Shown piece after piece: positions 17,886 to 21,165 of a DNA stretch of 64,000 bases (positions are counted from its first letter, which is position 1; every line of letters begins with the position of its first letter). The notes beneath the pieces are model-generated. The model made no database searches and was not told the origin of the DNA. It was given only the letters and a program-made list of their open reading frames with translations. The translations under genes and the position numbers were made by a program. Source of the stretch: Capitulum mitella (lineage: Eukaryota > Arthropoda > Thecostraca > Pollicipedomorpha > Pollicipedidae); contig CP099844.1 of the NCBI GenBank assembly GCA_030062745.1, positions 20,894,596 through 20,958,595 of the forward strand, written 5' to 3'.

Positions 17886-20800
17886 ATGGCGCCGGTGTTC
17901 ACGATCGCCCTGCGGAGTATCGACTTCGGCGATGGTCCGCTGGAGATCCTGGACTGCCGCGGTCTGGAAACACAGCTGGCCCGGCTGGAGGCCGTCAGGG
18001 GCGACGACGGCAAGACGCAGCTGGTGCACCAGCACACCTTCACCGTGCACTCACTGCGCAACGCCTTTATCGTGCCTGTGAAGGACAAGTCGTACTTCCA
18101 GATTTCGCTGCGCTTTCAGTCGGGCACGAACATGGAAACGACGGTGGGGGCCGCCACGCTGCTGCAAAAGTGCGAGGACAAGAAGCAGAACCACGCGCAG
18201 GTGACTCTGAAGATGAAGCCGTCCGGCCGGCTGAACCTGCGCGTGAAGCTGGCCGACGATGGCGAGGGCGACGACTCGCAGGAGGGCACCGAGATCGAAA
18301 CGCAGACGGAGCTGCCGGCTCGCCGCGGCGCCGTCAAACACCAGAAGGTGTATGAGGTGCGCGGCCACAAGTTCATCGCCAAGTTCTTCCGCCAGTTCAC
18401 GTTCTGCGTGTTCTGCCACAAGTTCATGTGGGGCTTCCGGAAGCAGGGGTACCAGTGCCAGCTGTGCCAGTGCGCAGTGCACCGCGAGTGTCACGGCAAG
18501 GTCCTCGGCCGCTGCCCGGGCTCGGCGGCCGAGAGCGAGCAGAGCGTCATCCTGCGCGAGCGCTTCAACATCAACGTGCCGCACAGGCTGAAGCAGCACA
18601 GCTACCGCTCGCCGACGTTCTGCGACCAGTGCGGCACGTTGCTGTTCGGTCTGTTCCGCCAGGGCCTGCGCTGCGAGGCCTGCGGACTCAACTGCCACAG
18701 AAAATGCCAGAGCAAGCTGCCAAATCTGTGCGGCATCGACCAGAAACGGCTGCAGGAGTTGCTACACGACGTGCGGAAGTCGTCGCTGATGCCGCGGCGG
18801 GGCGATGGCGCGCCAGCCGACGACAAGCTGTCGCCGATCGAGGAGGCCGGAGCCGACTCGGACGGGCCGCCGCTGCCGGCGCGAGGCGAGGAGCGGCGCG
18901 ACTCGCTGGCGCTGGTCGACCCGCCGCCGACGCCTGCCGAACCGCGCTTCACCATTAACGACTTCACCATGCTCAAGGTGCTCGGCAAGGGGAGCTTCGG
19001 CAAGGTTATGCTGGCCGAGATGAAGGGCGCGCGCCACTCGTTCGCCATCAAGTGCCTGAAGAAGGACGTGGTACTGGACGACGACGACGTGGAGTGCACG
19101 CTGGTGGAGAGGAACGTGCTGGCGCTGGGCACCCAACACCCGTTCCTGTGCCATCTGTTCTGCACCTTCCAGTCGCCGTCGCACTTGTTCTTCGTTATGG
19201 AGTTCTTGAACGGCGGCGACCTAATGTTCCACATCCAGCAGTCGGGCCGCTTCGACCAGGATCGGGCGCGCTTCTACGCGGCCTGAGGTGCTCTGCGGCC
19301 TCGAGTTCCTGCACGCGCGACACGTCGTCTACCGGGACATCAAGCTGGACAACATTGTGCTGGATTCGGACGGGCACGCGCGTATCTGCGACATGGGCCT
19401 CTGCCGGATGAACGTGAACGAGCAGAGCCGGTGCGCCACGTTTTGCGGCACGCCCGATTACCTGGCGCCGGAGATCGTGCGCGGCAAGCGTTACGACCAC
19501 GCCGTCGACTGGTGGTCGTTCGGCATCCTGCTGTACGAGATGCTGATCGGGCGCTCGCCATTCTCCGGGACGGACGAGGACGAGCTGTTCTGGTCCATCT
19601 GCAACGAGGAGGTGTACTACCCGCGCTACATCTCGGCGCAGGCGCGCGACATCCTCGGCCTGCTGCTCGAGAAGGACCCGCAGAAGCGGCTGGGCACCGC
19701 CGGCTGTCAGGCCGGTGCCATCCGCGACCAGGTCTTCTTCAAGCCCATCAACTGGGAGAAGCTGGAGAAGAAGAAGCTTCCGCCGCCGTTCAAGCCCAAG
19801 CTGAAGGGCTCGCAGGACTGGTCGTGCTTCGACAAGAGCTTTCTGCGAGAGGCGCCGGCGCTGACCGTGATCGAGAAGGAGATCCTGAAGACCATCGACA
19901 ACGCCGTCTTTGACGGCTTCGACTTCGTCAACGAGTCCATGTTCCAGGACGTGGGCCGCAAGGGCGACGGCAGGAAGATCTCGAAAACGGACATCCCCGG
20001 CCGGAAGGTGTCCAAGCAAGAGAACGATCCGCCTGGGGACAAGGCGTTGATGCTGAAGCTGCTCAATGACAATCGGATCCTGAACTCCAACGGCTCGGCG
20101 GCGCCGCAGCGCAAGGTCTCGGCGCCGACGCCGACCGGACTGGTGCCGCCGCGCTCCGACGGTCGCCGCTCACTGTCGCCCGGCCGCAAGGTCTCGACGC
20201 CGTCTCCGGCCAGCGCCCCGGCCTCGATGGCCGGCGCCTCGCCGCTGGCCGCCAAGGGCCGCAAGGTCTCGGCGCCGTCGCCGTCCGGCATGCTGCGAAA
20301 AATATCGCACGTGTTCGGCGGCGCCGAGAAGCGATCGGCTGACGCTGTCGACGGCCGCTCGCCCAGCCCGCGGCCGCTCGCCGAGCCGGCTGAGTCGGAG
20401 CGGGCGCGCTCCAAGAGTCCGCTGCCGCGGAGCGCCGACTCCGGCTACCGGTCGGCCCGTTCGGCCCGCAGTGGCGGCCGCTCGCCGGCCGGGCCGCGCT
20501 CCCGGTCTCGGAGCCCGGAGCCGCAGGCCGAACTACGGCCCGGGCCGCGCGCCGGCGGCCGCGCGGCCTCGCTCAGCCCGACCGCCGAGAAGAAGGCTCC
20601 GGCCGGGCCACGCTCCCGATCGAAGAGTCCTGTCCCCAGCGCTGGTCGGAAGAGTCTTGTCCCCAGCGCTGACCGCGGTGCTGACGCCCCCGCGCCGCCA
20701 CGGAACCGGAAGAACGGCGCCGCCACCGCCGCCCCCGAGAAACACTCACCCTCGAAAAGCCCCGACTGCAACGCCGCCTCGCGAAGTCCCGCGCTTGGGA

Positions 20801-21165
20801 AGAAGTCCCCGTCCAGGAGACGCTCGCGCTCGAAGAGCCCCGACCCGAGGGCGAGGTCGCCGAACACCGGGACCAAGCCGGCGTCCCGGCGGCGCTCGCG
20901 GTCGAAGAGTCCAGCGCCGCGGGCGCGGACTCCGAGTCCGGCGCCGGGCGGCAGGTCGGCGTCGGGCCGGCGCGCGCACTCGGGCAGCCCGGACGGTCGG
21001 AAGGGCTCCGGCCGGCCGGCGCGCTCGTCGTCCGGCGGCCTGCTGCTGTCGGCCGACCATGGCCGGGAGACCGGTTGGCGGCCGGGCCGGCGCAGTCCGG
21101 AGGGCCGCCAGCGCTCGCCCGGACAGCTGGTGGGCGCCTCCAGACTGCGGCCGCCCTCCCGGTGA
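17886..21165 (+). CDS. PKC-delta-type novel protein kinase C, intronless, with SR-rich tail and one +1 frame change
   Basis: Diacylglycerol-responsive Ser/Thr kinase by family. Start ATG 17886 (GCCGCCGCGATGG context). Residues 1-122 are C2-like; 145-155 a pseudosubstrate with Ala ([10 protein letters not shown]); C1A 161-210 and C1B 233-282 with complete HX12CX2CX13CX2CX4HX2CX7C ligands. The kinase domain starts near 358: GKGSFGKV loop, Lys389, Glu408. Frame 1 ends at UGA 19284-19286; dropping T19284 restores the conserved FYAAE and continues to a stop at 21163-21165, about 1092 residues in all against about 670 for PKC-delta. The second part has YRDIKLDN (Asp484), DMG instead of DFG (502-504), activation-loop Thr518, turn-motif Thr660 and hydrophobic motif FDGFDF with Asp679 at the usual phospho-Ser. 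From about 690 a tail has six RK(V/I)S motifs, then RSRSKSP-type blocks. No introns; it lies inside the GASZ-like last intron, same strand. Retrogene origin is likely but no poly(A) tract or target duplication is seen. The frame change may be a sequencing error, a disabling mutation or +1 recoding. Confidence 0.88.

Follow-up and report, generated by a model that had tools for sequence, protein, structure and literature searches.

The window analysed here, 64,000 nucleotides of Capitulum mitella DNA (assembly GCA_030062745.1, contig CP099844.1, positions 20,894,596 to 20,958,595), contains an intronless gene for a novel protein kinase C (PKC) of the delta/theta type, which runs on the plus strand from an ATG at 17886 to a stop codon at 21163–21165. 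Coordinates are those of the window unless another contig is named, and all gene features given lie on the plus strand. The question raised by this locus is why its reading frame continues for 412 residues past the hydrophobic motif of the kinase. The reading preferred here, with a probability of roughly 40%, is that a delta/theta PKC retrocopy gained a tail of about 410 residues that would act in phospho-regulated docking and localisation.

As assembled, the gene is read in two open reading frames (ORFs). The N-terminal ORF (17886–19283, 466 codons) comprises a C2-like region, a pseudosubstrate, C1A, C1B and the kinase N-lobe and is closed by a TGA at 19284–19286; kinase C-lobe and AGC C-terminal region follow at 19285–19908. 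The novel-PKC C2-like region (17886–18239) is collinear with the PKC-delta C2 domain from residue 1; two PKC-delta-type C2 chains of the Protein Data Bank (PDB; 1bdy and 1yrk) were the only ones to match it, end to end (query residues 1–118 and 1–120), at weak E-values of 0.052 and 0.17, and a Pfam search of the PKC ORFs gave no C2 match. The pseudosubstrate-like sequence PARRGAVK (18315–18338), aligned with ARKGALRQ of PKC-beta, stands directly before C1A. Tandem C1 domains are present (Pfam C1_1, two stretches, 102.1 bits for the protein at a cutoff of 26.5), namely C1A at 18366–18521 (limits set by eye; PDB 2yuu, 2enn) and C1B at 18582–18737 (best C1_1 stretch, residues 233–284; PDB 2enz, 7knd). 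The N-lobe (18951–19283) was placed by Pfam and PDB sequence matches, with level PDB scores for PKC-eta (155.7) and PKC-theta (153.6). The C-lobe, likewise matched in Pfam, gave its best PDB match with PKC-theta (1xjd, 259 bits, residues 1–219), ahead of PKC-beta (230 bits) and PKC-eta (208 bits), in a comparison limited to the isoforms that the PDB contains. Glycine loop, DMG and activation loop are kept according to sequence and PDB alignments, and the hydrophobic motif FDGFDF (19909–19926) carries Asp at the phospho-position. AGC kinase similarity and the tandem C1 domains thus support a delta/theta-type novel PKC, in line with the PKC-delta type first proposed for this locus, for which PDB matches, the weak C2 alignment and the kinase tree described below also speak. 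In NCBIfam, just bacterial kinase models were matched, far under their cutoffs.

Behind FDGFDF, the frame from 19285 stays open through to the stop, so that the roughly 400 extra residues of the original prediction amount to 412 (19927–21162). The tail has a net charge of +60, 70 serines and four aromatic residues, and consists of 17% S, 15% R, 14% P, 12% A and 10% G, together 68%. Because of this composition it is presumed to be disordered. A known domain within it was ruled out, with no match in Pfam (E 0.1) or PDB sequences (E 1), and an RNA-binding domain had no Pfam match in either ORF at E 0.1. Part 1 of the tail (19927–20340) contains six RK(V/I)S motifs, starting at 19972, 20002, 20110, 20185, 20260 and 20296, whose serines fall exactly on the predicted residues 699, 709, 745, 770, 795 and 807 if numbering is continued across the two ORFs. 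The prediction had placed four of them in the form (G/Q)RKVS(A/T)P or close to it; exactly this form is found in three, at 745 (RKVSAP), 770 (RKVSTP) and 795 (RKVSAP), each 25 residues apart, while 709 reads GRKVSKQ, 699 GRKISKT and 807 LRKISHV. The three belong to (G/Q)RKVS(A/T)P(S/T)P cores (20107–20283) that start at 20107, 20182 and 20257, with a spacing of exactly 75 nt. Tripling of one 75-nt unit was ruled out, since the in-register flanks are 29–40% identical at a background of 28.5% (sd 7.4), and only a core of about 27 nt is common to the three. Part 2 (20341–21162) is RS/SP-rich and carries the block RSRS(R/K)SP four times (20497–20517, 20611–20631, 20821–20841 and 20893–20913), which bears out the SR-like repeats described earlier.

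Motif excess was assessed by shuffling the residues of the final 406-residue stretch 2000 times. RK(V/I)S was observed six times against a shuffle mean of 0.03, (R/K)SP 13 times against 2.13 and RSRS(R/K)SP four times against 0.00; RS/SR dipeptides numbered 35 (mean 20.66), a count reached by 4 of the 2000 shuffles.

That the tail is coding is indicated by its codon use. In the kinase parts, the GC content at third codon positions (GC3) reaches 0.908 and 0.935; parts 1 and 2 of the tail have 0.889 and 0.861, compared with 0.635 beyond the stop and 0.646 5′ of the ATG. A synonymous codon preference derived from the kinase scored 0.504 for the tail in frame and −0.19 and −0.14 in the other plus-strand frames (shuffles: mean −0.079, sd 0.062); of the antisense frames, one reached 0.39, as is usual opposite a GC3-rich frame, and the others −0.20 and −0.12. 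Codon bias is weakest at about 20526–20765 (GC by codon position 0.72, 0.74, 0.78). Other frames across the tail are also long, so that, as had been cautioned, an open frame by itself carries little weight; a random GC-rich open frame is ruled out by the codon bias. The tail is very probably coding and, because its codon bias matches that of the kinase, appears to have been translated for long in the present frame.

The origin of the gene was addressed by searching the assembly (477 Mb, 16 contigs), in which the window lies on contig C6. At E 0.001 the second ORF gave at least 69 matches (best 70 of 4998 candidates scored), and the N-terminal ORF gave 28 genome matches, itself included (58 of 58 candidates scored). 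Relatives with several exons, assigned by eye, include PKC genes of epsilon-like type on C7 and of conventional type on C13, as well as an Akt-like kinase (C9) and a delta-type kinase (C10). All three other traced PKC genes (C10, C7, C13) match exon by exon, whereas the window gene matches in one stretch except for the frame break. Lacking introns where its paralogues have them, it is probably an old intronless copy derived by retroposition. A recent retrocopy with a close parent was ruled out in the assembly, where the best pieces elsewhere are short and 65–76% identical. Overlapping AATAAA sequences at 21989–21998 form a candidate polyadenylation site; they are not followed by a visible poly(A) tract, and target-site duplications were not searched for. 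An old retrocopy would have lost its poly(A) tract.

The delta-type sister on C10 (G000:C10:16121108-16127658) ends with FSGFDYTNPNMTD, 7 residues past its hydrophobic motif FSGFDY, as against 412 residues in the window gene. In a rough kinase tree of seven sequences, three of them without the N-lobe, both genes grouped together (0.97) next to human PKC-theta (0.84), with branches of 0.26 for the window gene and 0.45 for the C10 gene (C-lobe only: 0.42 and 0.48). With the C10 gene lacking a tail, there is no sign that the tail was ancestral to the delta pair. Borrowing from another gene or repeat of the genome was ruled out as well, as the tail matched nothing beyond itself at E 0.1 (62 of 62 candidates scored). 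The tail is therefore private to the window copy, being absent from the C10 sister and unmatched elsewhere in the genome.

No credible C1 exon was found in the 33 kb 5′ of the C10 kinase exons, where the best alignment with the C1 portion of the window protein had E 3.4, a 5′ end farther away being possible. The C10 kinase has Ala in the activation loop where Thr is expected, and its hydrophobic motif carries Asp; judged from its sequence, it is perhaps a lipid-independent PKC. Of the two delta-type genes found, it is the intronless one that has both C1 domains, so a retrogene may well serve as the main delta-type PKC in this animal. On C7 at 4.83 Mb, a C1 match standing alone (69% over 35 residues) is presumably PKD. 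A lone RKVSSP, probably due to chance, occurs about 1 kb 5′ of the earliest C10 kinase exon identified, within a short open frame (~C10:16120127).

Under the preferred reading, an old delta/theta-type copy, most likely made intronless by retroposition, gained the C-terminal extension, which would be translated together with the kinase as a disordered, strongly basic segment serving docking and localisation rather than catalysis. The three RKVS(A/T)P sites, which are evenly spaced, would be phosphorylated by a basophilic kinase, either PKC in cis or PKA, PKD or CaMK, and would then hold a 14-3-3 dimer via two sites at once. The RS/SP part could be phosphorylated by SRPK, CLK, DYRK or CDK-type kinases, leading to nuclear, speckle or condensate association. 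RxxSxP is a 14-3-3 binding form and occurs three times in the tail; RxxS also fits PKA, PKD and CaMK. PKC-delta prefers a hydrophobic residue at +1, and PKC sites often have basic residues on both sides. By these patterns, reading the three RKVS(A/T)P sites as 14-3-3 sites appears at least as apt as reading them as an array of PKC self-substrates.

Several results weigh against this reading. R..(S/T).P, the loose 14-3-3 pattern, shows no excess over the shuffles (3 against a mean of 1.68, reached by 469 of 2000), so the 14-3-3 assignment leans on the repeated core and its spacing. The three cores are near-identical, silent sites included (one synonymous and six non-synonymous codon differences in 27 pairs), and may for that reason represent recent copying at the DNA level, not conservation of the sites. 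In the tail repeats defined at DNA level, differences at codon positions 1, 2 and 3 amounted to 50/173, 32/175 and 55/174, summed over six in-register families of which some overlap and which are hence not independent; only position 2 differs less. Families D5 and D6 contain copies that are out of phase and do not enter this sum (in-phase pairs 1/0/3 of 8/8/8 and 2/3/1 of 7/7/7). Purifying selection inside the tail thus seems weak at best. The residues R, S, P, A and G are the typical yield of GC-rich codons, and a single-sequence fold of the C-terminal ORF was uninformative (pLDDT 38). The parent–copy relation of the C10 and window genes does not appear sharp, because human PKC-theta and C10 are about equally close to the window kinase (C-lobe identity 56.2% over 153 residues and 54.8% over 155). 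To the same side belong the DMG in place of DFG and a kinase frame that is not intact in the assembly, with two ORFs offset by +1 at 19284.

Part of this evidence is what a non-adaptive extension would leave behind, in which loss of the stop codon let the frame of the retrocopy extend into GC-rich DNA prone to slippage, and short basic, Ser- and Pro-containing units multiplied and were translated and tolerated to no particular use. This is a real possibility: besides the composition and the weak position-3 bias, short DNA repeats run all along the tail, minisatellites occur in the window and in the 3′ flank, and the C10 sister has no tail. Set against it are the motif counts, which exceed those expected from composition, and the kinase-like codon bias, which implies that the frame was long translated. 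Moreover, the four RSRS(R/K)SP.P blocks differ by 3, 8 and 29 changes at codon positions 1, 2 and 3 (54 codon pairs) and the six RK(V/I)S copies by 13, 0 and 30 (60 codon pairs), thus mostly at third positions, a result favoured by the choice of both sets by protein motif.

The frame break bears on a further alternative. At 19284, within the kinase domain, an in-frame TGA (19284–19286) ends the first ORF and homology picks up in the next frame, the N-lobe end ...FYAA and the C-lobe start being neighbours in other PKCs by PDB alignment. The GC3 peaks shift phase at the same position; therefore the offset lies in the assembled DNA. The break-spanning stretch occurs once in the assembly, five further matches being pieces of about 50–155 bases that are 69–86% identical. 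The original prediction had overlooked this break, and its residue numbers run across it. If the break were real and fixed, the gene would be a decaying retro-pseudogene whose kinase is no longer made and whose tail is a remnant extension, once or never used. Such a fate, which would agree with an intronless copy, a +1 break in the sole assembled copy of the stretch and the change from DFG to DMG, is unlikely in view of a single break in about 1,090 codons, retained kinase hallmarks, GC3 of 0.86–0.94 throughout, a kinase branch no longer than that of the intron-bearing sister, the AATAAA signals of its own and its possession, of the two delta-type genes found, of both C1 domains. Since no other lesion was seen in these codons, an assembly error or a young allele seems the likeliest cause of the break.

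The tail had first been described as a self-phosphorylating array of PKC substrate sites with an SR-rich end that targets the kinase to nuclear speckles, a view that partly overlaps with the docking tail preferred here. Its two halves are possible and not preferred, and as a whole it is distinctly improbable. Sites 699 (RKISK) and 709 (RKVSK), flanked by basic residues, do look more like PKC sites, and the RS/SP content would suit speckle targeting: the RS-rich N-terminus of CLK1 directs it to speckles, and CLK1 targets RS and SP dipeptides (PMC12872631). The array is weakened by the three repeated sites, which have A or T at +1, hence no hydrophobic residue there, and P at +2; in addition, (R/K).S(V/L/I/F/M) occurs at chance level in the tail (2 against a mean of 1.43, reached by 833 of the 2000 shuffles), 22 of the 29 R..S matches fall in the RS-rich part, and the sites do not derive from the pseudosubstrate PARRGAVK.

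The in-frame stop coincides with the exact position of the break, which is slightly unusual and would be compatible with a programmed +1 shift like that of antizyme. Antizyme shifts at UCC UGA, and the TGA at 19284 has this shift-site geometry. Of 8148 simulated one-base insertions, 310 (3.8%) produced a stop within the codon hit or the one after it, the median distance to a stop being 122 codons (207 sampled positions). A programmed shift at GCC UGA G, yielding mostly a C2-C1A-C1B-N-lobe fragment and, as a minority, full kinase plus tail, is nonetheless very improbable, as a 4% coincidence is not rare, the RNA 3′ of the break folds no better than shuffles (z +0.75; pseudoknots lay outside this test) and GCC is not known as a shift codon; that the sole full-architecture PKC-delta should be an intronless gene using such a shift to make a C2-C1A-C1B fragment and a 14-3-3/RS-tailed kinase at a set ratio is the least credible of all.

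Repeats also surround the gene. Degenerate repeats of ~21 and ~42 nt lie before the ATG, in the presumed 5′ leader (17530–17655, by eye to ~17880), and a minisatellite at 21250–21576 sits just 3′ of the PKC stop codon. Further minisatellites in the window, mostly with units of 24–41 nt, were located at 12444–13046, 33158–33674, 34686–34984, 44670–44942 and 51062–51848. Ten of the 38 listed window ORFs, all of them outside the PKC gene, were searched against Pfam and gave no match, and a tRNA and Rfam scan of the window gave no match. Elsewhere in the genome, other kinases occur in single long ORFs (C9:27.12M, C7:22.61M, C6:6.01M, C9:22.27M), named by eye as two PAK-like copies, a CaMKK-like kinase and a DLK-like MAP3K, and intronless kinase genes may be common there. 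Paired PAK-like and PKN-like loci, likewise named by eye, would fit the whole-genome duplication that PMC11331182 reports.

Among the open-access papers screened by title and opening of the abstract, no PKC with an SR-rich or extended C-terminus was met, and what was found on barnacle PKC or intronless barnacle genes held nothing on the window gene. PKC C-termini are short and structurally constrained, the C10 sister being one example. If this long, basic Ser/Pro/Arg tail is indeed coding, the AGC C-terminus would tolerate a large regulatory add-on, and the tailed PKC would be a natural test of moving 14-3-3 docking and RS-type targeting onto a PKC; if it is merely GC-rich drift, it would still offer a clear example of a conserved kinase that carries a neutral C-terminal extension.

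With the delta-like novel PKCs (PKC-delta, PKC-theta, arthropod nPKC) the window gene shares the pseudosubstrate, C1A, C1B, AGC kinase, turn and hydrophobic motifs and, by the weak alignment given above, a C2-like N-terminus; it differs from them by the absence of introns, the hydrophobic-motif Asp (also found in the C10 sister), DMG for DFG and the 412 extra residues. A crustacean survey with 106 arthropod delta-like PKC sequences describes canonical domain structures in brachyuran crabs, and its main text does not contain the words extension, barnacle or Cirripedia (PMC12608923). Lineage-specific low-complexity extensions on an AGC kinase system are known from crustacean PKA subunits, where they are N-terminal and glycine-rich according to the same survey. 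A serine/arginine-rich extension on a kinase is also a feature of CLK1–4, PRPF4B and CDK12/13, and the RSRSRSPEP- and RSRSKSP-type blocks of the tail presumably resemble the RS domains of SRRM and SR proteins. Unlike the latter, the window PKC has no RNA-binding domain, and its tail has no Pfam or PDB family match. CLK1–4, PRPF4B and CDK12/13 are CMGC kinases, whereas PKC is an AGC kinase; the RS extensions of PRPF4B and CDK12/13 are N-terminal. That of CLK is N-terminal as well (PMC12872631), in contrast to the C-terminal position in the window PKC. A parallel for the predicted docking sites is PKC-epsilon, in which two phosphorylated sites in the variable V3 region bind a 14-3-3 dimer (PMC7689578); there the tandem site lies in the hinge between C1B and kinase, whereas here three evenly spaced copies stand in a C-terminal tail.

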